This document shows positions 1 through 11,341 of a stretch of DNA of 11,341 nucleotides, piece after piece. The position numbers were made by a program, and so were the translations under genes. A model generated the notes under the pieces. It did not search any database and was not told where the DNA came from. It saw only the letters and a list, made by a program, of their open reading frames with translations. Every line of letters starts with the position of its first letter. The first letter of the stretch is position 1. This DNA comes from an uncultured Intrasporangium sp. (lineage in GTDB: Bacteria; Actinomycetota; Actinomycetes; Actinomycetales; Dermatophilaceae): positions 1 to 11,341 of the forward strand of contig CALMNV010000186.1 of the NCBI GenBank assembly GCA_937873285.1, read 5' to 3'.

Positions 1-321
1 GGCCTGCCCGAGCACATCACCGTGCACCTGGACGCCGGATACGACTCAGGAAAGACCCGTGAACTGCTCGATGAACTCGGCTGCGACAGCGTGATCAGCA
101 TCAAGGGCTTCCCCCTGCAAGCCGGCGCCCGCTGGGTCGTGGAACGCACCAACTCCTGGCACACCCGCGGCTTCCGCAAACTGCAGGTCTGCACCGAACG
201 GCGACAACGCGTCGTCGACGCCTACATCGCCCTGGCCAACGCCGTCATCATCATCCGACGCCTCATCCGCACCGCCTGGACCACCCACCGCTGGGACACC
301 AGACCCAAACGACGACCATGA
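1..321 (+). CDS. IS5-like family transposase, C-terminal part (5' end outside window)
   Basis: The reading frame is open from the first base and ends at TGA 319-321, so this is the last 106 residues of a longer protein. It shows the C-terminal half of a DDE transposase of the IS5 type: an LDAGYDS motif carrying one catalytic Asp near the window edge, then RWVVERTNSW, which carries the catalytic Glu, followed by a basic FRKLQVCTERR stretch. It ends in a hydrophobic helix (ALANAVIIIRRLIR) and a basic tail, as in actinobacterial members. The protein would cut and rejoin the ends of its own element. No frameshift or internal stop is visible in this part; whether the whole gene is intact cannot be judged. 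It converges on ispF. None of the GTATGCCG octamers found in the host genes lies in it, which fits an incoming element. Confidence 0.88.
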   Translation, partial: GLPEHITVHLDAGYDSGKTRELLDELGCDSVISIKGFPLQAGARWVVERTNSWHTRGFRKLQVCTERRQRVVDAYIALANAVIIIRRLIRTAWTTHRWDTRPKRRP

Positions 322-338
322 CCTATCCGCGCACTCTC
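1..338 (+). mobile_element. Insertion sequence, right-hand part, probable end at about 338
   Basis: After the transposase stop there are 17 bases (322-338) before the ispF stop codon. Read inward from the ispF side they are GAGAGTGCGCGGATAGG, which looks like a terminal inverted repeat of an IS5/IS427-type element. The next three bases, TTA (339-341), are both a plausible 3-bp target duplication and the complement of the ispF TAA stop. The left end is outside the window, so the inverted repeat partner and the duplication cannot be confirmed. The exact end is inferred. Confidence 0.6.
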
Positions 339-851
339 TTAGCCGGCCGGCGGCCCTGCGGGGACGACGAGCGCGGTCGCGACGGCGGCCAGGCCCTCGC
401 CCCGGCCGGTGAGGCCCAGCCCGTCGGTCGTCGTGCCGCTGACGCTGACCGGCGCGCCGGCCGCCGCGGAGAGGGCCCGCTGGGCCTCCTCGCGGCGGGC
501 GCCGATCCTCGGCCGGTTGCCGACGACCTGCACGGCGATGCTGCCGATCTCGAAGTGCGCCTCGCGCACCAGCCGGGCGGCGTGGGTCAGCAGCGCGCAA
601 CCGGCGGCCCCCGCCAGCTCGGGCCGGTCGCTGCCGAAGTGCGCCCCGAGGTCTCCGAGACCGGCGGCGCTGAAGAGGGCGTCGCAGGCGGCGTGCGCCG
701 CGACGTCGGCGTCCGAGTGCCCGACCAGGCCCCGCTCCCCGGGCCAGTGGAGCCCGGCGAGCCACAGCTCGCGGTCCGCGCGCTCGGCGGCATACGCGTG
801 CACGTCGACGCCGACGCCGACGCGGGGCAGGAGGGCCCGGCCGTCACGCAT
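339..851 (-). CDS. ispF: 2-C-methyl-D-erythritol 2,4-cyclodiphosphate synthase
   Basis: Converts CDP-methylerythritol 2-phosphate to the 2,4-cyclodiphosphate plus CMP in the cytosolic MEP isoprenoid pathway. At 170 residues it is slightly longer than the usual ~160. The metal site is visible: D16 and H18 in GVDVHAY, then [10 protein letters not shown] with H53 matching the third zinc ligand of the E. coli enzyme. The C-terminal signature [14 protein letters not shown] (about 140-153) is intact. The ATG at 851-849 overlaps the end of the upstream SDR gene by 8 bases (ATGCGTGA), implying translational coupling. The stop is TAA, unusual in this GC-rich sequence, and it lies exactly at the inferred edge of the insertion sequence. 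In many actinobacteria cysS follows ispF; here the insertion sequence does. The protein looks complete despite the insertion. Confidence 0.96.
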
Positions 852-1614
852 GCTCGTGCTGCCAGTCGATGGTTCCCCGGTGCAGCTTGTGGGGGGCGGC
901 CTGCGCGACCGGCTTGACGACGAGGGTGTCGATGTTGACGTGCTGGGGCAGCGCGACCGCGAAGGCGATGCACCGGGCGACGTCGTCGGCGACGAGCGGG
1001 TGGTCGACGTCGGCGTAGACCCGCTCGGCGCTCTGCCGGTCTCCGAGCCGGGTCAGCGAGAACTCCTCGGTGTGCACGAGCCCGGGGCGGATGTCGATGA
1101 CCCGGATGTGCTCGCCGTTGAGCTCGAGGCGCAGCGTCTCGGTGAGGGCCGAGGTGCCGTGCTTGGCGGCGACGTAGCCGCCGCCTCCCTCGTAGGCGTG
1201 CTGGCCGGCGATGGACGAGACGTCGACGATGGTCGCCCGGGGTGAGCGGCGCAGCAGCGGCAGTGCGGCCTGGGTCACCCGGGCGGTGCCGAGGACGTTG
1301 ACGGCATACATGCGCTCCCACTGGCTGAGGTCAGCGTCCTCGACGCTTGCCAGCCCGAGGGCGCCGCCGGCGTTGTTGACGAGCACGTCGAGCCGGTCGA
1401 GGCCGGCGAAGCCGTCGCGCACGCTGGCCGGGTCGGTGACGTCGAGGACGAGCGCGCGGGCGGCCGCTCCGATCTCGGCCACGACGGCCTCGAGCCGGTC
1501 TCGGCGGCGGCCGGCCACGACGACGGCGTAGCCGTCTGCGGCGAGACGCCGGGCGGTGGCAGCCCCGATGCCGGTCCCGCCGCCGGTGACGAGGGCGGTC
1601 TGGTCGGTGCTCAC
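844..1614 (-). CDS. SDR family NADP-dependent oxidoreductase (YdfG-like)
   Basis: A 256-residue classical short-chain dehydrogenase. The Rossmann motif TGGGTGIG is at 10-17, NNAG at 80-83, N106, the catalytic serine at 133/134 (DVSS), and the YxxxK pair Y147/K151 (YVAAKHG). The basic AGRRRDR after the second strand (about 34-40) favours NADP(H). The overall pattern resembles the YdfG / 3-hydroxy acid dehydrogenase subgroup, but the substrate cannot be read from sequence. The start is GTG 1614-1612, sharing GTGA with the ispD stop, and the end overlaps ispF by 8 bases, so it is the third gene of the carD-ispD-SDR-ispF operon. No role in the MEP pathway is known for this family. Position alone suggests co-expression, not shared chemistry. 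Confidence 0.93.
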
Positions 1615-2300
1615 CGGCCGAGGATACGGGCCGCGGCCGCCAGGTCGTCGGAGGTGGTGACCTTCGCGGCGCGCGGGTCACCGGGGACGACCCGGACGGG
1701 CTGCCCGATGCGTTCGACGAGGCCTGCGTCGTCGGTGGCGCCGGTGGCGCCGGTGGCGCTCGCATGTGCCCGCTCGAGGACGTCACGCCGGAAGCCCTGG
1801 GGCGTCTGGACGGCCCGCAGCAGCGCTCGCTCGGGGGTGGCCGTCACCAGGCCCCGCTCGTCCACCTGCTTGATCGTGTCGACGACCGGCACACCGGGCA
1901 CGACCGCCGGGGCGCCGGCGCGCACCTCGGCGCTGACCCGGTCGAAGACCGCGGCGGGGGTCAGGCACCGGGCCGCGTCGTGGACGAGGACGACCTGGGC
2001 GGCGGGGTCGAGCGCGGCGAGCCCGGCCGCGACCGAGTCGTGCCGCTCGGCACCACCCGCGACGACCGTGACGTATGCCGCCTGGCCGCCCTCGGCGACG
2101 ACGGCTCGCGCCGCCTCCTGCCACCCGGGGGGCACGACGACGACGACGTGGGCCAGCCGCGGGCAGCGCAGCGCGCCCCGCAGGGCATGCCCGAGGATGG
2201 GCCGCCCGGCGAGGGGCACGAAGGCCTTGGGCAGGTCGGCGCCGAGCCGCGAGCCGGAGCCGGCGGCGACGAGGACGATCCCGGTGTCGCGCTCGCTCAG
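1611..2300 (-). CDS. ispD: 2-C-methyl-D-erythritol 4-phosphate cytidylyltransferase, probable CTG start
   Basis: Transfers CMP from CTP to methylerythritol 4-phosphate (MEP pathway). The nucleotide-binding N-terminus [19 protein letters not shown] is present, with R18 and K25 as the expected CTP-binding residues. HDAARCLTP (about 107-115) matches the family signature with Cys for the usual Pro. [17 protein letters not shown] and KVTTSDDL follow. The N-terminal motif lies upstream of the first in-frame GTG (2219), so that start would remove the active site. Reading back from there to the in-frame TGA at 2411-2409 I find no ATG, GTG or TTG. The only good candidate is CTG 2300-2298, which overlaps the carD stop as CTGA, just as ispD's own stop overlaps the SDR start as GTGA. 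A GAGG lies 10 bases upstream (2314-2311). This start gives 229 residues, the normal family length. Three in-frame 9-bp repeats (1734-1760) encode Ala-Thr-Gly units. Confidence 0.92.
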
Positions 2301-2779
2301 GAGGCGAGGACCTCGTCGAGAATCGACTCCGCCTTGTCCTCGTCGGTCTTCTCGGCGAGGGCGAGCTCCGACACGAGGATCTGGCGGGCCTTGGCCAGCA
2401 TCCGCTTCTCACCGGCCGACAGCCCGCGGTCCTGGTCACGCCGCCACAGGTCGCGCACCACCTCGGCAACCTTGATCACGTCGCCGGACGCCAGCTTCTC
2501 GAGGTTTGCCTTGTAGCGGCGGGACCAGTTGGTGGGCTCCTCGCTGTGCGGGGTGCGCAGCACCTCGAACACCCGGTCCAGCCCCTCCTGACCGACGACG
2601 TCGCGGACCCCGACCAGGTCGCAGTTGTCTGCGGGGACCTCGATCGTCAGGTCCCCCTGAGCCACCTTGAGCCTCAGGTAGAGCTTGTCCTCCCCGCGGA
2701 TCGTCCGGGTGTTGATTGCCTCGATCAGTGCGGCCCCGTGGTGGGGGTACACGACCGTCTCGCCGACCTTGAAGACCAT
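2297..2779 (-). CDS. carD: CarD family RNA polymerase-binding transcription regulator
   Basis: A 160-residue protein that follows the mycobacterial CarD pattern nearly throughout (family length about 162). The N-terminal Tudor-like RNAP-interaction domain begins [20 protein letters not shown] and includes R25. The helical DNA-binding domain begins near [20 protein letters not shown] with W85, the residue that wedges into the promoter bubble edge, and continues through [17 protein letters not shown]. CarD binds the RNAP beta subunit and stabilises open complexes at rRNA and many housekeeping promoters. It is the first gene of the operon; its TGA overlaps the proposed ispD CTG. The start ATG 2779-2777 is preceded by AGGGG about 10 bases upstream. 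The carD-ispD-ispF order matches mycobacteria and Streptomyces. Confidence 0.97.
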
Positions 2780-2806
2780 GCGCTGTTTTCCCCTTTCGCG
2801 ACCGCC

Positions 2807-2815
2807 AGAATATCA
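2807..2815 (-). promoter_or_regulatory. Extended -10 promoter candidate for the carD operon
   Basis: Read on the minus strand the site is TGATATTCT, a TGn extended -10 with hexamer TATTCT. It would place transcription start near 2800 and leave a leader of about 21 bases that contains the AGGGG ribosome site. No convincing -35 lies 16-18 bases upstream, which fits an extended -10 promoter. This is the most AT-rich stretch of the spacer. Confidence 0.45.
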
Positions 2816-3077
2816 CGGCCGCGCCCTCGACCGCGAACCTCGGCATCCCATCTGCGCAGGTCAGGACCGGTCGAGCGGATCAGAAGGGCCGTCCCGCGCC
2901 CTTGACAGCAGGGCCGCCGGCGTGCATGCCCGAGGGTCGCGAGGACGTCCCCGGTGGCCGAGGGCCGTGGAGGGCTTCCGGCCCCGATCGCGGACACGAC
3001 GCTGACCAGGACCGGGCGTTCTGGCCCCGTCGCCCCGGGCTCGCGTCCCAGGTCCGCGATAGGGCGGCGGCCGCCGC

Positions 3078-3083
3078 TACGCT
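3078..3083 (+). promoter_or_regulatory. -10 box TACGCT of a leaderless lipoprotein mRNA
   Basis: TACGCT is followed by 7 bases and then the GTG start at 3091, so transcription would begin at or next to the start codon. No Shine-Dalgarno sequence is visible before the GTG. No good -35 is seen. Confidence 0.55.
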
Positions 3084-3090
3084 GAGCCCC

Positions 3091-3645
3091 GTGAAGCGTC
3101 GAATCCTCGCCCTGCCCCGGTCGCGCCGCAGCGTCCGCACGACGGCCGCCGTCGCGGCGGTCCCCGCGGTGGTCGCCCTCACCAGCGCGTGCCAGGTCTT
3201 CTCGCCGGTGCAGACCAACGTCCCCTACGCCCCGGCGGACGGGGTGCCGGCCACGGTGGGGCTGCTGCAGGTGAGCAACCTGCTGCTGGTGAGCAACGGC
3301 ACCGGCGAGGCTGCGGTGTCCGGCGCCCTCTACAACTCGGGCAACGAGCCGGCCGTGGTCCAGCTCGCCGCGCAGCAGCAGGGTGGGACGCCGGGTCCGG
3401 CCGCGCAGGTCGAGGTCGGGCCCGGCCAGCAGCTCATCCTCTCGGACAAGGGGGTCCGTCTCACGGGGGTCACCGCCAAGCCGGGCACGATGGTGCCCAT
3501 GACCGTGCAGAGCAGTGTCGGCGGCGCGACGGTCGTCAACGTGCCGGTGCTCCCGCCGGAGCGCTACTACGCCACGCTGCTGCCGGGCGGGGCCACTCCG
3601 GCGGAGGCGACCCTCCCGTCCGCTCCGCCCAGCCCCACCAGCTGA
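3091..3645 (+). CDS. Small secreted lipoprotein, PCu(A)C/DUF461-like fold suspected
   Basis: A 184-residue protein. The GTG at 3091 gives a classical N-terminus: basic KRRILALPRSRRSVR, a hydrophobic core TTAAVAAVPAVVALTSA, then Cys (about residue 34) in LTSAC, an acceptable though not ideal lipobox. The mature protein is rich in Val, Gly and Pro and beta-strand-like: a VSNLLLVSNGTGEAAVSGALYNSGNEPAVV segment, VGPGQQLILSDKGVRLTG, then GTMVPMTVQSS and VVNVPVL. This order resembles PCu(A)C/DUF461 lipoproteins, but the His/Met copper ligands of that family are not evident, so copper binding is not supported. The tail is low-complexity Pro/Ser. It lies divergent from carD and convergent with regX3. 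The function is unknown; the lipoprotein call is firmer than the domain call. Confidence 0.82.
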   Translation: MKRRILALPRSRRSVRTTAAVAAVPAVVALTSACQVFSPVQTNVPYAPADGVPATVGLLQVSNLLLVSNGTGEAAVSGALYNSGNEPAVVQLAAQQQGGTPGPAAQVEVGPGQQLILSDKGVRLTGVTAKPGTMVPMTVQSSVGGATVVNVPVLPPERYYATLLPGGATPAEATLPSAPPSPTS

Positions 3646-3646
3646 G

Positions 3647-3660
3647 CCGACTGCGGTCGG
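3647..3660. terminator. Weak hairpin between convergent lipoprotein and regX3 genes
   Basis: CCGAC and GTCGG form a 5-bp stem with a four-base loop in the 46-bp gap between two convergent stop codons. There is no T-tract on either side, so it is at best a weak or assisted terminator. Confidence 0.28.
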
Positions 3661-3691
3661 GCGGCGCGGCCTCCGGCGATCCGCGCAGCGC

Positions 3692-4375
3692 TCACGCCGC
3701 CTCGAACTTGTAGCCGAGGCCGCGCACCGTGATGATGTGGACCGGGTTGGCAGGGTCCGGCTCGATCTTGGAGCGCAGCCGCTTGATGTGCACGTCGAGG
3801 GTCTTGGTGTCGCCGACATAGTCGCTGCCCCAGACGCGGTCGATGAGCTGCATCCGGGTCAGCACCCGGCCCGAGTTGCGCAGCAGCATCTCGAGCAGCT
3901 CGAACTCCTTCAGCGGCAGGGAGGTCGCCCTGCCCTCCACGCTCACCGTGTGTCGCTCGACGTCCATCCGGACGGGGCCCGCCTCGATGGTCGTCGGCAC
4001 CAGGTCCTCCGGCTCCGCCAGCCGGCGCAGCACCGCCTTGATCCGCGCGAGCAGCTCGCGGCTCGAGTAGGGCTTGGTGACGTAGTCGTCGGCCCCGATC
4101 TCGAGCCCGACGACCTTGTCGATCTCGCTGTCCTTAGCGGTGAGCATGATGATCGGCACCGACGAGCGTTGCCGAAGCGCGCGGCATACGTCGACACCGG
4201 AGAGCCCGGGCAGCATGAGGTCGAGGAGCACGAGGTCCGCTCCCGCGGCGTCGAACTGGGCCAGCGCGGCCGGTCCGGTCTCCACGACGGCCACGTCATA
4301 GCCCTCCCGGCGCAGCAGGTAGGACAGCGGATCCGAGAACGACTCCTCGTCCTCGACGATCAGGATGCGGCTCAC
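3692..4375 (-). CDS. regX3: Phosphate response regulator, OmpR/PhoB family (RegX3-like)
   Basis: A 227-residue OmpR-type regulator, the same length as mycobacterial RegX3 and closely similar along it. In the receiver domain (about 1-120) the acidic pocket is E8/D9, the phospho-acceptor D52 (LLDLMLP), the switch T79 and K101 (YVTKPYS). The C-terminal winged helix (about 130-225) contains LPLKEFELLEMLLRNSGRVLTR, DTKTLDVHIKRLRSKIE and TVRGLGYKFE. The GTG at 4375 was chosen because GAGAGG (4386-4381) lies 5 bases before it; the open frame extends further upstream without family similarity, and an alternative GTG lies two codons up. It follows senX3 by 13 bases and the pair is surely one operon. 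Streptomyces calls the equivalent pair PhoR-PhoP. It should activate phosphate-starvation genes, probably including this locus. Confidence 0.95.
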   Translation of the reverse strand: MSRILIVEDEESFSDPLSYLLRREGYDVAVVETGPAALAQFDAAGADLVLLDLMLPGLSGVDVCRALRQRSSVPIIMLTAKDSEIDKVVGLEIGADDYVTKPYSSRELLARIKAVLRRLAEPEDLVPTTIEAGPVRMDVERHTVSVEGRATSLPLKEFELLEMLLRNSGRVLTRMQLIDRVWGSDYVGDTKTLDVHIKRLRSKIEPDPANPVHIITVRGLGYKFEAA

Positions 4376-4388
4376 GGGCACCTCTCGT

Positions 4389-5621
4389 TCAGGCGTTGAC
4401 GGCCGGGTCCGGCCGCGGGACAGATGCGGATGCCGAGGCTGCACCGAGCGCCGGCCGCGAGACCGACGGCGCGGCGTCCGCGGGGAGCACGGTACCCGGC
4501 AGGCGGACGGTGAACGTCGACCCGCGCCCCGGCTCGGACCACACCGTCACCTGCCCACCATGATTCTCCGCGACGTGCTTGACGATCGCCAAGCCGAGAC
4601 CCGTGCCCCCGGTGCGCCGGGATCGGGCGGCGTCGACCCGGTAGAAGCGCTCGAAGATCCGCTCCTGCTCCTCCGGCGCGATCCCGACACCCTGGTCGGT
4701 GACCGCGACCTCGACCAGGCCGTCGCGGGCGCGGCGCACCGAGACCCCGACGCGGGTGCCGCTCTCGGAGTAGGAGACCGCGTTGCCCACGAGGTTGGTG
4801 ACCGCGGTCGTGACGAGCCCCTCGTCACCCCAGACGGTGCACCCGGACTCGAGGTGGACCGCGACGTCGATGCGGTGCTGCTCGGCGAGCAGGCGGCAGC
4901 GCTCGGCAGCCTCGGTGGCGCACCGGCCCACGTCGACGAGCACCGGCTCCGTGATGACGTCGGCCCCCTGCAGGCGGGAGAGCTCCACGATCTCGCGGAC
5001 GAGCTGCGTCAGCCGCTTGGACTCCACGGTCATGCGCTGGGCGAAGCGAGCCACCGCCTCGGGGTCGTCCGAGGCGTGCAGCACGGCCTCGGCGAGCAGG
5101 GCGATCCCCCCCACCGGCGTCTTCAGCTCATGCGAGACGTTGGCGAGGAAGTCGCGGCGGACCTCCTCGATGCGGCGGGCATCGGACCGGTCCTCGACGA
5201 GGACCAGGACGTGGTGCGCGCCGAGCGGCGCCACCCTGGCGGCGACGGCCAGGCGCGCGTCGCCGAGGCCCTTGCGCAGCTGCAGCTCCGCCTCGCGGAT
5301 GACGCCGTCCCGTCGCACGTCTCGAGCCAGCTGGACGAGCTCGGGGTGGACGAGCTCCTGGCCGCGGACCAGCCCGTGAGCGGCGGCCGCCGGTGAGTTG
5401 TTGACGACCCGGTCGGAGCTGTCGAGGACGACCCCGCTCGAGCGCAGCACCGCGAGCACCTCGGCCGCACCGGGGGCGAGGTCCTGGACCGGCGGCGCGG
5501 CGGCGTCCCGGGCGGCGGCGCGGGCCGCGGACCGGCCGGTGAGCCGCACTGCGAGCACCGCGACGGCACCGAGCGCGAGCGCGGCGACGGCGCCGAGGAT
5601 CGCCGCGGTTGTTGAATCCAC
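4389..5621 (-). CDS. senX3: Sensor histidine kinase of phosphate regulation (SenX3-like)
   Basis: A 410-residue membrane kinase. One N-terminal transmembrane helix (about 5-27) has almost no extracellular part, then a PAS-like region (about 53-145). The HisKA domain carries phospho-acceptor H164 in FLANVSHELKTPVG. The HATPase domain has the N box NLVGNAVSYS (276-285), G1 DQGVGI (309-314), F box and G2 GGTGLGL (338-344). The C-terminus is Ala/Ser/Pro-rich. Order and motifs match SenX3/PhoR, which senses phosphate status through the Pst-PhoU complex rather than a periplasmic ligand. The start is GTG 5621-5619, directly behind a -10 box (leaderless). A SenX3-type second N-terminal helix is not apparent. 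It is divergent from phoU across a spacer with a PHO-box-like repeat. Confidence 0.95.
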   Translation of the reverse strand: MDSTTAAILGAVAALALGAVAVLAVRLTGRSAARAAARDAAAPPVQDLAPGAAEVLAVLRSSGVVLDSSDRVVNNSPAAAAHGLVRGQELVHPELVQLARDVRRDGVIREAELQLRKGLGDARLAVAARVAPLGAHHVLVLVEDRSDARRIEEVRRDFLANVSHELKTPVGGIALLAEAVLHASDDPEAVARFAQRMTVESKRLTQLVREIVELSRLQGADVITEPVLVDVGRCATEAAERCRLLAEQHRIDVAVHLESGCTVWGDEGLVTTAVTNLVGNAVSYSESGTRVGVSVRRARDGLVEVAVTDQGVGIAPEEQERIFERFYRVDAARSRRTGGTGLGLAIVKHVAENHGGQVTVWSEPGRGSTFTVRLPGTVLPADAAPSVSRPALGAASASASVPRPDPAVNA

Positions 5622-5628
5622 GTCGTTC

Positions 5629-5634
5629 AGGGTA
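5629..5634 (-). promoter_or_regulatory. -10 box TACCCT of leaderless senX3-regX3 mRNA
   Basis: On the minus strand TACCCT is followed by exactly 7 bases and the GTG of senX3. No ribosome-binding sequence lies between them, so the operon probably starts as a leaderless message. The -35 region is poor, which would fit a promoter that needs an activator. Confidence 0.55.
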
Positions 5635-5692
5635 CGCAGAAGCCGAAGCGACCTTGGTCACGGCCGACCTGCCGGGCGGGCCCGTGGGCAGT

Positions 5693-5725
5693 GTTCACCT
5701 TCCCGCCTTGCACCGTTCATCCTCG
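5693..5725 (+). promoter_or_regulatory. PHO-box-like 11-bp direct repeats (RegX3/PhoP operator candidate)
   Basis: Three contiguous 11-bp units lie in the 148-bp divergent senX3/phoU spacer: GTTCACCTTCC (5693-5703), a degenerate CGCCTTGCACC (5704-5714) and GTTCATCCTCG (5715-5725). The known Streptomyces PHO box is built of 11-bp direct repeats beginning GTTCACC. Unit one matches 7 of 7, unit three 6 of 7, and the middle unit poorly. The units read toward phoU. They lie about 70-100 bp upstream of the senX3 start and end 44 bp before phoU. A CAACCT at 5731-5736 could be a poor phoU -10. Confidence 0.55.
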
Positions 5726-5769
5726 GCTGGCAACCTCGGGCCGACCGCCGTCACACGGACAGGACCACC

Positions 5770-6477
5770 ATGCGCAACCAGTTCCATGCGGACCTCGACG
5801 CCATCTCCGAGCACCTCGTCGAGATGACCCGTCTCGCGGGGTCGGCGATGGAGCGCGCCACCACCGCCCTCCTCGACGCCGACGTGCACCTCGCCGAGTC
5901 GGTCATCGAGGCCGACAAGGACCTCGACGACCAGCGTGTCGCGCTGGACGAGCTGGCCATCAACCTCCTTGCCCGCCAGCAGCCGGTGGCGACCGACCTG
6001 CGGATCCTCGTCACCTCCATGCACATGAGCACCGACCTCGAGCGCATGGGGGATCTCGCCCGCCACGTGGCCAAGGTGGCGCGGCTGCGGATGCCCGAGT
6101 CGGCCGTGCCGCCCGAGCTGCGCGCCTCCATCGTGCAGATGGGGCAGGTCGCCGCGATGATCGTCGCCAAGTGCGGGTCGATCATCGCGAGCAAGGACGT
6201 GGAGGCGGCTGCTCGGCTCGAGCAGGACGACGACGAGATGGACGACCTGCACCGCCGCCTGTTCGCGTCGCTGCTCGACGAGGACCGGCCTTGGTCCAAG
6301 AGCACCGTCGTCGACCTCACCCTCGTCGGCCGCTACTACGAGCGGTATGCCGACCACGCCGTCTCGATCGCCCGCCGGGTCATCTACCTGGTCACGGGCA
6401 TGTATGACGGCGGCGTGGACCACGAGGACGAAGAGGACGCGGACGCCATCGCCCGCATCGAGCGCGGCGACGTCTGA
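5770..6477 (+). CDS. phoU: Phosphate signalling and transport accessory protein PhoU
   Basis: A 235-residue all-helical protein with two PhoU repeats (about 15-105 and 115-205). Each carries the metal-cluster signature ExxxDxxxH or its variant: ERMGDLARH at 91-99 and ERYADHAV at 191-198. PhoU links the Pst phosphate transporter to the sensor kinase and holds the kinase in its repressing state when phosphate is ample. The ATG at 5770 has AGGA five bases upstream (5761-5764); the open frame runs much further back, but only from this ATG does the family begin. The C-terminus is an acidic tail (DHEDEEDADA) seen in actinobacterial homologues. No pst genes are in the window. It converges on gpmA across a repeat-filled spacer. 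Confidence 0.95.
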   Translation: MRNQFHADLDAISEHLVEMTRLAGSAMERATTALLDADVHLAESVIEADKDLDDQRVALDELAINLLARQQPVATDLRILVTSMHMSTDLERMGDLARHVAKVARLRMPESAVPPELRASIVQMGQVAAMIVAKCGSIIASKDVEAAARLEQDDDEMDDLHRRLFASLLDEDRPWSKSTVVDLTLVGRYYERYADHAVSIARRVIYLVTGMYDGGVDHEDEEDADAIARIERGDV

Positions 6478-6490
6478 CCCGGCACCCCGC

Positions 6491-6572
6491 CGATTGGCCA
6501 CTTCCGCACAGCCCAAGCCCTCGACCGGCCGTTGCCGCAGGCCCAGCCCGTCGACTGGCCACTTCCGCACAG
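6491..6572 (-). repeat. Left cluster of ~30-bp repeats (inverted relative to right cluster)
   Basis: Three units begin at 6491, 6522 and 6552 (periods 31 and 30). The first and third share the core TGGCCACTTCCGCACAG; the middle one is degenerate (CGGCCGTTGCCGCAGG). Read on the minus strand the core is GCGGAAGTGGCCA followed by a TCG, the same as the right cluster apart from single changes. They begin 14 bases after the phoU stop. Confidence 0.8.
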
Positions 6573-6604
6573 GCTCGGAGCGGTCGCTCGTGCGGCCTCC
6601 ACGT

Positions 6605-6688
6605 GCACCGGACGACCATCGGTCCCGCGTCGATGCCCCACTCGTGCTCAGCCCGACGCGGCCGGCCCACCTATGGTCGTCCGAGTGC
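6605..6688. repeat. Long imperfect hairpin at the centre of the repeat region
   Basis: CGGACGACCAT (6609-6619) is perfectly complementary to ATGGTCGTCCG (6673-6683). Outward, GCAC pairs with GTGC with a one-base bulge. Inward, GGT pairs with ACC, and CCGCGTC (6625-6631) pairs with GACGCGG (6655-6661). The loop is 23 bases (6632-6654). It lies between the convergent phoU and gpmA genes, so it could end transcription from both sides, or be the core of a mobile palindromic element. It lacks a clear T-tract. Confidence 0.65.
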
Positions 6689-6712
6689 CGCACCGGCCCG
6701 GCCAGCGCCGCA

Positions 6713-6866
6713 CGGAACTGACCACTCGACCAAGGTCGGCGGCCTCGTCAGGGCGACGAACCAAGCGGCCAGCCGGGCGGAAGTGACCAGTCGACCGGGA
6801 AGGTGTGCGGAAGTGACCAGTCGACCGGGAAGGTGTGCGGAAGTGACCAGTCGACCGGGAGGGGTG
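6713..6866 (+). repeat. Right cluster: three tandem 30-bp repeats plus a diverged copy
   Basis: Units begin at 6777, 6807 and 6837. The first two are identical (GCGGAAGTGACCAGTCGACC then GGGAAGGTGT) and the third differs only near its end. A diverged copy, CGGAACTGACCACTCGACC, lies at 6713-6731. The left cluster is the same sequence in reverse orientation, so the region is roughly symmetrical about the central hairpin. There are no unique spacers between units. The array ends 20 bases before the gpmA stop codon. Confidence 0.88.
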
Positions 6867-6886
6867 CGGGGCGGCACCGGCCGCGG

Positions 6887-7630
6887 TCAGCGGCCCTGCT
6901 GGGCGACCGCCGCGGCAGCGGCCGCCGCGGCCTCCGGGTCGAGATAGCGTCCACCGAGCGCCACCGGCCGGAACTGGTCGTCCAGCTCGTAGACCAGCGG
7001 CATGCCGGTCGGGATGTTGAGCCCGGCGATGTCGTCGTCGGAGACCTCGTCGAGAGTCTTGACCAGCGCGCGCAGGGAGTTGCCGTGCGCGACGACGAGC
7101 ACGACCTTCCCGGCTCGCAGGTCCGCCTGGATCTCCCCCTCCCAGTAGGGCAGCAGCCGAGCGACCACGTCCTTGAGGCACTCGGTGCGAGGCATCTGCT
7201 CGCCGAGGGCGGCATACCGCGGGTCATCCGTCTGGGCGTACTCGTCGCCCGGGTCGATCGGCGGTGGCGGCGTGTCGTAGGACCGGCGCCACAGCATGAA
7301 CTGCTCCTCGCCGTAGGCGTCGAGCGTCTGCTTCTTGTCCTTGCCCTGCAGCGCGCCATAGTGGCGCTCGTTGAGCCGCCAGTCCCGCCTCACCGGGATC
7401 CAGTGCCGGTCCGCGACGTCGAGGGAGATGTTGGCCGTGCTGATGGCGCGGCGCAGCAGCGAGGTGTGCAGGATGTCCGGGTGCAGCCCCTCGGCGCGCA
7501 TGAGCTCTCCGGCGCGCACTGCCTCGGCTCGCCCCTTGTCGGTCAGCTCGACGTCGACCCAGCCGGTGAAGAGGTTCCTGGCGTTCCAGTCGCTCTCCCC
7601 GTGTCGGACGAGCACCAGCGTGTAGGTCAT
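6887..7630 (-). CDS. gpmA: 2,3-bisphosphoglycerate-dependent phosphoglycerate mutase
   Basis: Interconverts 3- and 2-phosphoglycerate in glycolysis. The 247 residues match the usual ~249. Phospho-histidine H10 sits in [11 protein letters not shown]61 in LLRRAIST, E88 in [12 protein letters not shown], and the second catalytic His H182 in [11 protein letters not shown]. The C-terminus ends in a run of alanines ([11 protein letters not shown]), which may be a flexible tail. The ATG at 7630 directly precedes [11 protein letters not shown], and no ribosome site lies before it; a -10 box 7 bases upstream suggests a leaderless message. The start is 20 bases after the YbjN-like gene stop. The mshA-YbjN-gpm order is the same as in mycobacteria (Rv0486-Rv0487, then gpm1), so the gene order is old. 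Confidence 0.96.
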
Positions 7631-7637
7631 GATCGCA

Positions 7638-7643
7638 ACCCTA
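7638..7643 (-). promoter_or_regulatory. -10 box TAGGGT of a leaderless gpmA mRNA
   Basis: On the minus strand TAGGGT is followed by 7 bases and the gpmA ATG. It lies in the 20-bp gap after the YbjN-like gene, so gpmA can be transcribed apart from mshA. The -35 would fall inside the upstream gene and is not recognisable. Confidence 0.5.
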
Positions 7644-7650
7644 TCGGCGC

Positions 7651-8151
7651 TCAGTCCTCGAGCAGATGGCGGAACGCCTCGAGGTTGGCGGTCGACTCCC
7701 CCCGGGAGACCCGCCACGCCCACTCGCGGCGCATCGAGCTGCGGAACCCGAGGATCAGCAGCTCGTTGAAGGCGGCGTCGGCTGCGGTGAGCAGCGCGCC
7801 GAGCAGCTCGTCGAGCCGCGTGGCGTCGACCGCCTCGTTGGGCAGCGCTCCTCGCACGAAGACGTCCCCGTGTCCGTCGACGGCGTAGGCGAGCCCCGGC
7901 AGCCGAAGGTTTCGGCGCAGCAGGTGACGGTAGAAGGCCTCATGGTTCTCGTCCGGGTTGCGGATGACGAAGGCCGACACGCTCGTGGTGTGCTCCCGCA
8001 CGAGCAGCGACACGACGGTCCGCAGCCTCTGCTCGCCGGGCAGCGTGACGACGTACTCCCCGGGGCGGCCACCGAGCTCCCACCCGAGATCGACCGATTC
8101 GAGGTATGCCGTGAGCCTGGCCGACGCGCCGTCGGCGCCCCCGTCCGTCAC
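7651..8151 (-). CDS. YbjN domain-containing protein (mycobacterial Rv0487-like)
   Basis: A 166-residue soluble protein with a YbjN / type III secretion chaperone-like alpha-beta fold: a [17 protein letters not shown] strand pair, [20 protein letters not shown], a helical [30 protein letters not shown], and a helical C-terminus [22 protein letters not shown]. The GTG at 8151 overlaps the mshA stop as GTGA, so the two are translationally coupled; another GTG lies one codon earlier. The frame is open far upstream inside mshA, but that part is antisense-free shadow coding without family likeness. The biochemical role is unknown. Its conserved place behind mshA suggests a link to mycothiol or envelope metabolism, or simply an old operon. 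Confidence 0.87.
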
Positions 8152-9449
8152 CACGCCAGCGCCGGCCGGGCCCCGGCGAGGCCTGCGGCCGCGTCGGGCA
8201 GGGACACGGCCCGCTCGAGGATCGCCTGCCGGTAGACCGTGAGCAGCCGCTCCGTGGTGGCCCCCCACCCGAACTGCGCGGCGTGCGCCACCCCGCGGGC
8301 GCCGAGCGCCGCACGCCGCTCCGGGTCGCCGAGCAGCGCCTCGATGGCGTCCGCCCAGTCCTTCGTCGCGTGCCCCTGCACCAGCACGCCGGCGTCGCCC
8401 ACCGCGGTCGGCAGGCCGCCGACGTCCGCGGCGACGACCGGGGTGCCGCAGGCCTGCGCCTCGATTGCGACGAGGCCGAAGGACTCGGTGTGGCTGGGCA
8501 CCACGACGAGGTCGGCCGCGCGATACCAGTCGGCGAGGGTCGGCCGCGCCACTGGGCGCAGGAACCGCACGACGTCGGCGACACCCAGGCCCGCGGCGAG
8601 CTCCTCGAGGTCGTGCGGCCGGGCCAGTCCCGTCCCGCTCGGGCCGCCGAGAACGGCCACCGAGAGGCGTGCTCGCCGCGCCGGGTCGCGGGCGATCAGC
8701 TCGGCAGCGACGTGGACGAGGACGTCCGGCGCCTTGAGCGGCTGGATCCGCCCGACGAAGAGGAGCAGCGGGCCGTCGACAGGCAGGCCGAGCGCCTGGC
8801 GGGCCGCCTCCCGCGCGCCGGGGGTGAAGGTGCGGAGGTCGACGCCGGGAGGCACGACGGAGACCTTGGCGGGCGGCGCGGCATACAGCTCGACGAGGTC
8901 GCGGGCCTCGTCCTGCGTGTTCGCCACGAGCCGGTCGGCGGCCTCGACCACCTGCGCCTCCCCGATCTCGCGGCGGGAGGGCTCCGGGACGTCGCCGTCT
9001 GCGACGTGCTGGTTCTTGACCCGCGCCATGGTGTGCATGGTGTGCACGAGCGCCGCGCCCCACCGGTCGGCGGCGAGCCAGCCCACCTGACCGGAGAGCC
9101 AGTAGTGCGAGTGCACGAGGTCGTAGTGGCCCGGCTCAGCGGCGAGGCCGGTCCGCAGCGTGCCGGCGGCGAAGGCACACAGCTGCCCCACGAGCTCCTC
9201 CTTGGGCAGCCCCTCGTAGGGGCCGGCAGCCACGTGGCGCACCCGGACTCCGGGGGCGAGCGGCGCCACCATGGGCAGGTCGGCACTCGTGCGGCGGGTG
9301 AAGATGTCCACCTCGGTGCCGCGGGCGGCCAGCTCCTTGGCCACCTCGACGACGTAGACGTTGAGGCCGCCGGCGTCGCCGGTGCCCGGCTGGTCCAGTG
9401 GCGACGTGTGCACGCTGAGCATCGCCACCCGCCTCGGGTCACCGGGCAC
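8148..9449 (-). CDS. mshA: D-inositol-3-phosphate glycosyltransferase (mycothiol synthesis)
   Basis: First committed step of mycothiol: transfers GlcNAc from UDP-GlcNAc to 1D-myo-inositol 3-phosphate. A GT4 family GT-B protein of 433 residues. The N-terminal acceptor domain has [22 protein letters not shown] (about 12-33), which holds the inositol-phosphate binding loop, and HSHYWLSG (113-120). The C-terminal donor domain has [12 protein letters not shown] (231-242) and the E-x7-E motif ESFGLVAIE (E322, E330). The GTG at 9449 was chosen because AAGGAG (9460-9455) sits 5 bases before it; a TTG six codons upstream would lie over that ribosome site. It is first in mshA-YbjN, divergent from the methyltransferase. 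A TTGACG at 9489-9484 may be a -35, but no matching -10 is seen. Confidence 0.95.
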
Positions 9450-9525
9450 GTGAGCTCCTTCCACCAAGCCATCACCGTCGCTGCGTCAACGACGACTGGA
9501 TGCCGTGCGATTCCCGCCGGCCGGG

Positions 9526-9531
9526 TAGAGT
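9526..9531 (+). promoter_or_regulatory. -10 box TAGAGT of a leaderless methyltransferase mRNA
   Basis: TAGAGT, then 6 bases, then the GTG at 9538. No ribosome site is visible. It sits in the 88-bp spacer shared with divergent mshA. Confidence 0.55.
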
Positions 9532-9537
9532 GCGCCG

Positions 9538-10329
9538 GTGCTGGCTGGCCGACCCGTGGGGAGCATCACCCGAGGGACGACCTCCCCGAACCGGCTGCGC
9601 CGGTGCGACCGCTGGCTGGCGGGTCCCGCCTCCCGCCGCCTGCGCGGGGCGGGGCCGCATCCCGTTGTCGTCGACCTCGGCTACGGCGCCTCACCGGTCA
9701 CGGTCGTCGAGCTGCACGCGCGGCTGCGGCAGGTGCGCCGCGACGTGCGCGTCGTCGGCGTCGAGATCGACCCGCAGCGGGTGGCCGCCGCCTCGCCGCT
9801 CACGCGTGACGGCCTCAGCTTCCGGCGCGGCGGCTTCGAGGTGCCGGTCGACGGCGGGGCCCGGCCGGTGGTCGTGCGGGCCTTCAACGTGCTGCGTCAG
9901 TATGACGAGGACGAGGTCGTCGGCGCTTGGCGCCGGGTGCGCGATCGGCTCGCGCCCGGCGGGGTGCTCGTCGACGGCACCTGCGACGAGGTCGGCCGAC
10001 GCGCGGCGTGGGTGGCCGTCGAGCCGGCCGGGCCGGTGAGCCTGACGCTCTCGCTGCGCCTCGGCGGCCTCGATCGCCCCTCGGAGGTGGCGGAGCGGCT
10101 GCCCAAGGCGCTCATCCACCGCAACGTGCCCGGTGAGCCGGTGCACGCCTTCCTGCGCGACCTCGACGCGGCGTGGGCACACGCCGCCCCGCACGGCGCG
10201 TGGGGCGCCCGGCAGCGCTTCCTCGCCGCCGTGCGGGCCGTCGCTGCGCACTGGCCGCTGCTCGACGGGCCGCCGCGGTGGCGGCTCGGGGAGGTCACCG
10301 TCGCCTGGGACGCGGTCGCGCCGCGCTGA
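9538..10329 (+). CDS. Class I SAM-dependent methyltransferase-like protein
   Basis: A 263-residue protein. The Rossmann-type SAM site is seen as motif I VVVDLGYGASP (43-53) and the acidic end of strand two GVEIDPQRV (74-82), then ARPVVVRAFNVLRQYDEDEV and LAPGGVLVDGTCDE, the usual strand four and five region. The C-terminal half has ALIHRNVPGEPVHAFLRDLDAAWAHAAP, without a motif that names a substrate. It could methylate a small molecule, protein or RNA. The start is the GTG at 9538 behind a -10 box, and the N-terminal RRCDRWLAG fits homologues in actinobacteria. It is divergent from mshA and convergent with the cupin gene. The family call is good; the substrate is unknown. Confidence 0.85.
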   Translation: MLAGRPVGSITRGTTSPNRLRRCDRWLAGPASRRLRGAGPHPVVVDLGYGASPVTVVELHARLRQVRRDVRVVGVEIDPQRVAAASPLTRDGLSFRRGGFEVPVDGGARPVVVRAFNVLRQYDEDEVVGAWRRVRDRLAPGGVLVDGTCDEVGRRAAWVAVEPAGPVSLTLSLRLGGLDRPSEVAERLPKALIHRNVPGEPVHAFLRDLDAAWAHAAPHGAWGARQRFLAAVRAVAAHWPLLDGPPRWRLGEVTVAWDAVAPR

Positions 10330-10389
10330 CCGGCCGGGCGGGCTGTCCCGCGGCGGCGACAAGACGCTGACGCCGCTGGACTTCGTCAT

Positions 10390-10423
10390 CCTGACGTCGC
10401 GCTGGCATCCCGACGACGTCAGG
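10390..10423. terminator. Perfect 10-bp inverted repeat between convergent genes
   Basis: CCTGACGTCG (10390-10399) and CGACGTCAGG (10414-10423) pair perfectly around a 14-base loop. It lies in the 116-bp gap between the convergent methyltransferase and cupin genes, the expected place for a bidirectional terminator. There is no T-tract. A second, weaker hairpin (GCGGG/CCCGC, 10338-10351) precedes it, and a GTATGCCG octamer lies at 10435-10442. A protein-binding palindrome is the alternative. Confidence 0.5.
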
Positions 10424-10445
10424 CAGGTCCGGCCGTATGCCGCAG

Positions 10446-10922
10446 CTAGCGGGCGACGTTCTCGCGGGCGTAGTCGTCCTGCAGCCGGTGGATGTCGGCC
10501 TCGTCGAAGTGCCCGAAGGCGACCTCGAGCAGGCGACCCGGCCGGTCGCCGGTGTTGCCCATCCGATGCGTTGCACCGCACGGCACCCAGACGGTGTCCC
10601 CCGGCTGAGCGGTCCAGCTGCGGTCGCCGACGGTCACCTCGATCGGCACGTCGAGCACCGTCCACATCTCGCCCCGGTGGTCGTGCCGCTGGAGCGAGAG
10701 CCGATGGCCGGGTTGCACGGTGATGACCTTGACCGTGACTCGCTCGTTGGAGACGAACTGCTGGAAGTTCCCCCACGGCCGCTCGGCGAGGAAGATGTCC
10801 CGGGTCGGGTCGCGGTCGCCGAGGTCGGGCCCGTCGATCGGCTGCGGGGCGGCGCCGTGCCGGATGTCTGCGCGCCGGATGTCCGCGCGCCGGCCGTCGG
10901 GCCGCCCGGCCGGCATGCTCAC
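10446..10922 (-). CDS. Cupin protein, type II mannose-6-phosphate isomerase-like
   Basis: A 158-residue protein with one cupin domain at about 45-155. It matches the isomerase domain of bifunctional mannose-1-phosphate guanylyltransferase / mannose-6-phosphate isomerase: RPWGNFQQF (48-56), PGHRLSLQRHDHRGEMWTVL with metal ligands H80, H82 and E85, then PCGATHRMGNTG with H119, and the terminal DIHRLQDDYARE. The guanylyltransferase half is absent, so it is a stand-alone version that may act on sugar phosphates; the substrate is not settled. The N-terminal ~40 residues are polar and unrelated to the fold, and contain a duplicated 15-bp unit giving RADIRRADIR. The GTG at 10922 overlaps the DUF2516 stop as GTGA; an ATG lies two codons further in. 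Confidence 0.88.
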   Translation of the reverse strand: MSMPAGRPDGRRADIRRADIRHGAAPQPIDGPDLGDRDPTRDIFLAERPWGNFQQFVSNERVTVKVITVQPGHRLSLQRHDHRGEMWTVLDVPIEVTVGDRSWTAQPGDTVWVPCGATHRMGNTGDRPGRLLEVAFGHFDEADIHRLQDDYARENVAR

Positions 10923-11233
10923 CACCGGCGCCCCGAGCTCCCACCGCGACCGCGCAGCGCGAGCACCGCCGGCCGCACGTCGGCGAGGTAGACCGCCGCC
11001 GCGACGAACGCCGCCAGCCCGAAGAGGCTCAAGACGTTGAACACCGTGACGATCCCGACTGCGAGGGCGAGCCCGAGGATCAGCAGCCAGAAGGTGCGGG
11101 TCCGCTTGCCGGCGGCGACGTAGGCGGCATCCGGGTGCCGCAGGGCATCGAGAAACGCGAAGAGCTCGCACCCCAGCGCCCCGAGACCCAGCGCCATGAG
11201 GATGACGGACTGGAAGCTGCCGAACAATGCCAT
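10919..11233 (-). CDS. DUF2516 family small membrane protein
   Basis: A 104-residue protein with two to three transmembrane helices: about 6-28 (SVILMALGLGALGCELFAFLDAL), then after a polar loop (RHPDAAYVAAGKRTR) a long hydrophobic part (FWLLILGLALAVGIVTVFNVL and LFGLAAFVAAAVYLADV) and a basic Gly-rich tail. The sequence agrees with the actinobacterial DUF2516 family, whose function is unknown. The ATG at 11233 was chosen over upstream in-frame starts because the family begins at MALFGSFQ and a -10 box lies 6 bases before it. The stop overlaps the cupin start. Confidence 0.88.
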   Translation of the reverse strand: MALFGSFQSVILMALGLGALGCELFAFLDALRHPDAAYVAAGKRTRTFWLLILGLALAVGIVTVFNVLSLFGLAAFVAAAVYLADVRPAVLALRGRGGSSGRRW

Positions 11234-11239
11234 GCCGTC

Positions 11240-11245
11240 AGCGTA
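11240..11245 (-). promoter_or_regulatory. -10 box TACGCT of a leaderless DUF2516-cupin mRNA
   Basis: On the minus strand TACGCT is followed by 6 bases and the ATG of the DUF2516 gene, the same hexamer as before the lipoprotein gene. No ribosome site is seen. Confidence 0.55.
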
Positions 11246-11307
11246 ACCGCACCGCGTGGCTGGCCGTCGACGTCGCCCAGACGCCAGGGCATGCGGCGCC
11301 GCCCGAG

Positions 11308-11341
11308 TCACGTGTCGATGACAAGGGTGACCGGCCCGTCG
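11308..11341 (-). CDS. dtd: 3' end of a probable D-aminoacyl-tRNA deacylase (5' part outside window)
   Basis: The last 34 bases, read on the minus strand, give DGPVTLVIDT and TGA (11310-11308). A DGPVT motif at the C-terminus is typical of Dtd, which hydrolyses D-amino acids from mischarged tRNA. Ten residues are too few to be sure. The 74 bases between this stop and the DUF2516 start hold the leaderless promoter. Confidence 0.5.
   Translation of the reverse strand, partial: DGPVTLVIDT

Follow-up and report, generated by a model that had tools for sequence, protein, structure and literature searches.

An abundant octamer with lineage dialects in an actinobacterial family, a candidate DNA uptake sequence

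The DNA uptake sequence (DUS) of Neisseriaceae is known in eight dialects, which are conserved within species, with 2245-5918 copies in the genomes quoted in the available text of PMC3630211; according to the same text, five genomes have no obvious word, and inverted pairs of the word, which occur at terminators, are present in every genome with a dialect. Pasteurellaceae have an uptake signal sequence (USS) of nine to ten letters. In cyanobacteria, the palindromic octamer HIP1 (GCGATCGC) has been linked to methyltransferases, among them orphan ones (PMC4390886, accessible part). Here we describe an octamer, GTATGCCG, that occurs nine times in an 11,341-nucleotide stretch of DNA (the window) from an uncultured Intrasporangium sp. 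(GenBank assembly GCA_937873285.1, contig CALMNV010000186.1, positions 1 to 11,341). The word is real, strong and genome-wide, it has dialects, and it is apparently undescribed. GTATGCCG and its relatives may serve an actinobacterial family as DNA uptake sequences that come in dialects, a reading to which we give a probability of about one half.

Like the DUS, GTATGCCG is a short asymmetric word that is present on both strands in up to thousands of copies, has lineage dialects, is lacking from some relatives, and forms intergenic inverted pairs that are predicted hairpins. It differs from the DUS in that the hosts are actinobacterial (high-GC Gram-positive), the word is another one, of eight letters, and nothing points to uptake by a ComP-type type IV pilus, PilM being matched in only 7 of 186 genomes. 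Abundance on the genome is shared with the USS; the USS is a different word, its hosts are Gram-negative, and no clear A/T pattern flanks GTATGCCG. The Flp/Tad competence system of Micrococcus luteus uses comEA-comEC and Tad genes that are also present in the family carrying our word; the accessible texts on it mention no uptake word (PMC6370729, PMC8467076, PMC12849477). Among the papers listed in a literature search, judged by title and start of abstract, there was no description of the word or of any actinobacterial uptake word. In the available part of PMC2843746, on octamers abundant in most bacteria, the term "uptake" does not occur.

A preliminary description of the window had reported nine copies of the octamer. 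All nine were found at the positions it gave; read along the plus strand, five are CGGCATAC and four are GTATGCCG. The claimed excess over chance was evident from 200 dinucleotide shuffles of the window, which gave a mean of 0.10 copies and at most 1. No other 8-mer of the window was as strongly over-represented as GTATGCCG (9 copies; 0.14 expected under a dinucleotide model). The GC content, taken as ~72% in that description, was computed as 73.3%. Eight copies lie in genes and one is intergenic, as had been stated, and Pfam domains were present for all eight genes. The names regX3, gpmA and mshA are carried over from the preliminary description. The copies of GTATGCCG are as follows.

Copy 1, 788..795, minus strand: in ispF (Pfam YgbB), as TAT-GCC in the Tyr-Ala frame
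Copy 2, 1302..1309, minus strand: in a short-chain dehydrogenase (SDR) gene (Pfam adh_short), as TAT-GCC
Copy 3, 2073..2080, plus strand: in ispD (Pfam IspD), antisense, as GCA-TAC (Ala-Tyr)
Copy 4, 4182..4189, minus strand: in a regX3-type response regulator gene (Pfam Response_reg and Trans_reg_C), as GTA-TGC (Val-Cys)
Copy 5, 6345..6352, plus strand: in phoU (Pfam PhoU), as TAT-GCC
Copy 6, 7210..7217, minus strand: in a gpmA-type phosphoglycerate mutase gene (Pfam His_Phos_1), as TAT-GCC
Copy 7, 8104..8111, plus strand: in a YbjN-domain gene, ybjN (Pfam YbjN), antisense
Copy 8, 8879..8886, minus strand: in an mshA-type glycosyltransferase gene (Pfam Glycos_transf_1 and Glyco_transf_4), as TAT-GCC
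Copy 9, 10435..10442, plus strand: intergenic, between an open reading frame at 9538-10329 (plus strand) and a convergent cupin gene at 10446-11171 (minus strand), close behind the end of the latter

Our own gene calls missed phoU and ybjN, so the count of three intergenic copies that they gave for the window is an artefact. The window also contains two tandem repeat arrays of ~30-bp units, at 6486-6572 and 6777-6869, between phoU and gpmA. The two arrays look like mutual reverse complements, with units around GTCGACTGGNCACTTCCGC, and this region (6486-6869) is possibly what the preliminary description meant by an insertion sequence part.

The draft genome to which the window belongs (1.84 Mb in 344 contigs, 58% complete) contained 673 forward and 668 reverse copies of GTATGCCG, 1341 in total, versus 189 copies (89 + 100) of the reversed word. 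A genome-wide frequency near expectation, the outcome named beforehand as speaking against the octamer, was thus not found. Within the family, 108 of 186 genomes, from 31 genera, had 100 or more copies per Mb, with a median of 447 and a maximum of 1356 (~0.1-1.4 copies per kb); 9 had 50-100 per Mb, and 69 had fewer than 50 (median 10). The thresholds of 100 and 50 per Mb were chosen by us, and genome sizes were rounded. The strand totals over the 108 word-rich genomes were 101,176 forward and 101,512 reverse. A seeming plus-strand excess in the site lists looked like an ordering artefact, forward matches being listed first, and was dismissed on the balanced full counts. Outside the family, no genome in an order sample of 297 or a phylum sample of 396 reached 100 copies per Mb; the highest density there was that of G727 in the phylum sample, whose 1.8 Mb contain 161 copies, 5.4 times as many as of the reversed word. 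(Genomes, genera and loci are given by our handles, G, g and L with a number.) In a search of 80 loci, each of three Terrabacter loci had 12 copies in 20.8 kb, and a locus of Ornithinimicrobium pekingense had 8; the other 76 had 0-1. The family using the word is very probably Dermatophilaceae/Intrasporangiaceae. G302, G394 and G366 have background levels of GTATGCCG within otherwise word-rich genera, and are useful contrasts for finding a reader gene.

In sampled pieces of 200-400 kb, GTATGCCG headed the order-3 Markov ranking in G438, G361 and G368; in G404 it came third, after two words that overlap it. Synonymous-codon shuffling, which keeps protein and codon usage, predicted 9.8, 9.3 and 6.9 coding copies in G404, G438 and G361, where 157, 119 and 86 were observed; z was 45, 34 and 28, respectively, and 18 in G368. 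The top word of seven control sets without an assigned word (three family genomes and four other genera) reached z 7-10. All six codon frames were occupied in G404, G438 and G361, most often Tyr-Ala, which accounts for 69 of the 153 coding copies of G404. Between genes, 33, 50 and 42 copies were found in these genomes versus 2.0, 0.97 and 0.74 expected, and 15 versus 0.35 in Terrabacter. Confinement to one codon frame, which the preliminary description had named as a point that would count against it, is therefore not seen in relatives, and its proposal that the constraint acts on DNA was borne out by the Markov, codon-shuffle and census results: the word is a DNA-level, genome-wide and strand-neutral one. 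A push at the amino-acid level was rejected, since word-rich genomes did not differ clearly from the others in the observed/expected ratios of the dipeptides that the six frames encode.

Genomes poor in GTATGCCG are dominated by other words, e.g. GGATGCCG, GTACGCCG, CGATGCGG and GAAGGGGG, several of which are one or two letters away. The preferences of individual genomes are given below, with counts per 80 kb for G324.

G324: GGATGCCG, 80 per 80 kb versus 9.5 expected
G452: GGATGCCG, 74 versus 7.9 expected; codon-shuffle z 10, equal to the top control; 3949 copies in the whole genome versus 289 of the reversed word
G372: GTACGCCG, 69 versus 14.4 expected
G366: GTACG[GA]CG, i.e. GTACGGCG with GTACGACG
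G365: CGATGCGG, 86 versus 15.4 expected
G341 (genus g9): GAAGGGGG dialect; CGAAGGGGG 46 versus 2.3 expected
G302: CGTAGACC, weaker, 42 versus 10.5 expected; codon-null z 9, within the control range; strong between genes
G303: GTATG[CG]CG, i.e. GTATGGCG beside GTATGCCG; z 9 on 80 kb
G404: prefers GGTATGCC

Under the codon-shuffle null, a form of each dialect word ranked first in its own genome with z 10-15 (z 9 on 80 kb in G302 and G303; controls 7-10), and dialect words were enriched between genes as well. A census of GGATGCCG gave 2099-4480 copies in the seven genomes of g100, g105 and g135; elsewhere its ratio to the reversed word was between about 1 and 7. Two species of g105 carry both words: G326 has 1217 copies of GTATGCCG and 2195 of GGATGCCG, and G327 has 1189 and 2099. 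Their congeners G324 and G325 have mainly GGATGCCG, with 361 and 288 copies of GTATGCCG remaining. These two-word genomes represent an intermediate state between dialects. No dominant word was found in 80 kb each of G428, G202 and G328. GGATGCCG is somewhat raised in two g11 genomes, G428 and G235 (1210 and 1336 copies versus 614-949 in ten congeners), which may have a weak word.

GTACGNCG is perhaps a related, looser word in another order. In 16 Nocardioides loci (L036-L110), three of its four forms gave codon-null z values of 12-17; other words there reached 11-12. These loci all stem from one conserved gene neighbourhood, and shared ancestry inflates the count. Intergenic copies of GTACGNCG numbered 95 versus 19.7 expected in Nocardioides, 17 versus 13.4, 11 versus 9.2, 4 versus 2.9 and 2 versus 2.4 in other genera, and 9 versus 3.7 in G428. 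Other words outrank GTACGNCG between genes in the Nocardioides loci. Its inverted pairs there numbered 24 versus 18.7 expected, and direct pairs 8. Which sixth letter of GTACGNCG is preferred depends on the species, e.g. C in L060 and L110 and A in L092 and L052. In G438 (L161-L170), no intergenic GTACGNCG was found versus 5.8 expected, while GTATGCCG is abundant.

Word pairs within 45 bp were counted in 13 word/genome sets, which exclude the second word of G404 and Nocardioides. Inverted pairs numbered 34 versus 17.8 expected, and direct pairs, the control, 11 versus 17.8; the expectation ignores the higher intergenic density of the words. According to our own gene calls, 23 of the 34 inverted pairs are intergenic. 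Most of these are predicted to form hairpins of -12 to -37 kcal/mol, several lie between convergent genes, and they occur in the GTATGCCG, GGATGCCG and GAAGGGGG dialects. The inverted pairs may thus be terminator-like hairpins of the kind described for the DUS. The word GAAGGGGG of G341 (L185-L188), which forms hairpin pairs between convergent genes, is among the least GTATGCCG-like of the words found.

Seven word-free gaps of more than 7 kb were present in the pieces of G404, G438 and G361. Two of them lie close to the beginning of G404 and another in G438; the remaining four, which were annotated and are listed here, are all of often-acquired kinds.

L176: prophage with a serine integrase
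L138: polysaccharide cluster
L130: island with an EcoRI-type methylase and GmrSD (restriction-modification)
L164: island with a cyclic oligonucleotide-based antiphage signalling system (CBASS) and type I restriction

The kinds of genes in these islands suggest that they were acquired. At 13089-17661 of L130 (G404), the EcoRI-type methylase adjoins a GmrSD/HNH protein and a DUF5131 gene, likely a defence island without the word.

In five GTATGCCG sets, perfect copies exceeded the word-masked background by factors of 25-122 (96-fold in G438, 82-fold in G361). The flanks carry no more than ~0.6 bit per position, mainly from a G before the word in G404 and, in G438, from a T or C after it, followed by G. 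Spacing was near random, with a coefficient of variation (CV) of 0.92-1.07. The preliminary description had suggested checking strand bias relative to origin and terminus; none was found, strand use being near even in both arms, with 248 of 488 copies "leading" when the origin was assumed at the contig start. Polarity along replichores, as for FtsK-orienting polar sequences (KOPS), was ruled out in sampled pieces of three genomes. Among Terrabacter species, 26 of 34 aligned sites were intact in three overlapping pairwise comparisons, versus fractions of 0.49-0.58 for 8-mers of like composition.

That the word is a by-product of codon use or of a Tyr-Ala protein motif, as its commonest frame might suggest, is so improbable as to be negligible: all six frames are seen, intergenic enrichment is as strong, and codon shuffling predicts 7-10 copies where 86-157 are seen. 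Synonymous shuffling and the intergenic counts refute this explanation. Another rival is a Chi-like signal read one-way by a resection enzyme other than RecBCD (e.g. AdnAB), with dialects that follow enzyme changes. Chi too is an asymmetric, over-represented word in coding DNA, GTATGCCG as an octamer of this type is missing from some islands of often-acquired kinds, and Chi words likewise differ between lineages. We nevertheless consider this reading unlikely. Of the 22 GTATGCCG-rich genomes tested, 13 lack RecC, and RecBCD is therefore ruled out as the general reader. Chi of E. coli shows a leading-strand bias, in contrast to the even count reported above. The enrichment of GTATGCCG exceeds the value of 5.7 given for E. 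coli Chi under another model (PMC1939737, available part), and inverted intergenic hairpin pairs have no Chi rationale.

We regard as still less probable a HIP1-like mark, in which the word would be the target of a resident DNA methyltransferase or of a repair process that favours its survival. HIP1 resembles GTATGCCG in being an abundant octamer, and a 10-mer form of it has 5648 copies in Synechocystis (PMC1939737, accessible text). However, GTATGCCG is not its own reverse complement and hence not palindromic, and no methyltransferase class searched was common to all word-rich genomes tested. Among 16 word-rich single-contig genomes, PF01555 was matched in 7, PF00145 in 7 and PF02384 in 14, some matches being weak. 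G388, with 1336 copies of the word, matched none of these three families; others, e.g. PF02086, PF07669 and PF13651, were not searched genome-wide. The EcoRI-type methylase (PF13651) is present in G404. Drift by one letter between dialects would also be less natural for swapped methyltransferases. The methylation target offered as an alternative in the preliminary description thus stands as a rival, weakened by G388 as regards a shared methyltransferase. A chromosome-organising or nucleoid protein that binds the word sequence-specifically about once per kb would fit the even strand use, the genome-wide spread and the lack of the word in some islands. We think it very improbable, in view of the near-random spacing and the lack of a replichore pattern in sampled pieces; a dialect change would also mean rewriting thousands of sites without a drive. 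The earlier judgement, which likened the word to uptake sequences or HIP1 rather than to KOPS or Chi, is supported, the function of the word being a matter of inference. It appears closer to the DUS than to HIP1 because of its dialects, the two bilingual species, the inverted hairpin pairs and its lack in some islands of often-acquired kinds.

If the word is an uptake sequence, it would be bound in natural transformation by a DNA-binding protein at the cell surface, for which a Tad/Flp pilin or a partner of ComEA is plausible. Word-bearing DNA would enter through ComEA-ComEC and then recombine; biased uptake and recombination would spread and maintain the copies, and drift of the reader protein would make the dialects. 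ComEC was found in 180 of 186 family genomes (160 of 162 good ones) and a Tad domain in 46 of 47 genomes tested. In G404 and G438, comEA lies next to comEC, beside degV. Several observations weigh against the uptake reading. ComEC and Tad are also present in genomes where no word was found (G428, G202, G328); being near-universal, they do not explain the distribution of the word. The draft genome of the window, 58% complete, gave no ComEC match. No receptor gene was found, and only one of the seven matches to the type IV pilus marker PilM extends over full length; type IV pili were rejected as the uptake route on the small number of matches. Not every set has intergenic inverted pairs: none of any kind were seen in G368 and G372, and G404, G366 and G365 have them only in coding DNA. 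The five Terrabacter pairs trace to two orthologous places. Site positions turn over, with 2 of 7 or 8 aligned sites intact between the window and Terrabacter, which is background, and 0 of 2 between the window and Ornithinimicrobium. Density is maintained and positions are not, as expected of a biased gain-and-loss process.

The one-mismatch forms may also count against uptake. They stand at only 1.2-1.9 times expectation for GTATGCCG, 1.2-1.4 for GGATGCCG and 0.9 for GAAGGGGG. By the measure of PMC1939737, as given in its available part, the excess over expectation is 0.2-0.9 here, ~10 for a Pasteurellaceae uptake word and for a HIP1 form, and 1.5 for Chi; one-mismatch copies are thus fewer here than for the uptake words treated there. 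In G438, the excess is 13% of perfect copies, near the 21% given for kingDUS (PMC3630211, available part). The low excess argues against a simple copy of the known uptake words, although chance counts of 8-mers are high in high-GC DNA.

Even if the word is not an uptake tag, an octamer with family-wide presence, tens-fold enrichment and dialects requires a reader. With more reserve than for the uptake reading as such, we suggest that actinobacteria may recognise their own DNA in natural transformation by a code that has at least five dialects in one family, extends to the looser GTACGNCG in Nocardioides, and is read by a Tad/Flp- or ComEA-linked receptor. Such a code would be, to our knowledge, the first uptake-sequence system outside two Gram-negative families, and would provide a second, independent case for testing why uptake words exist. 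The dialects would then limit gene exchange between lineages in a way that sequence alone reveals. Natural transformation in the phylum is, as far as we know, known mainly from Micrococcus luteus; if GTATGCCG is an uptake tag, it would be a lasting, species-aware force in a large actinobacterial family.

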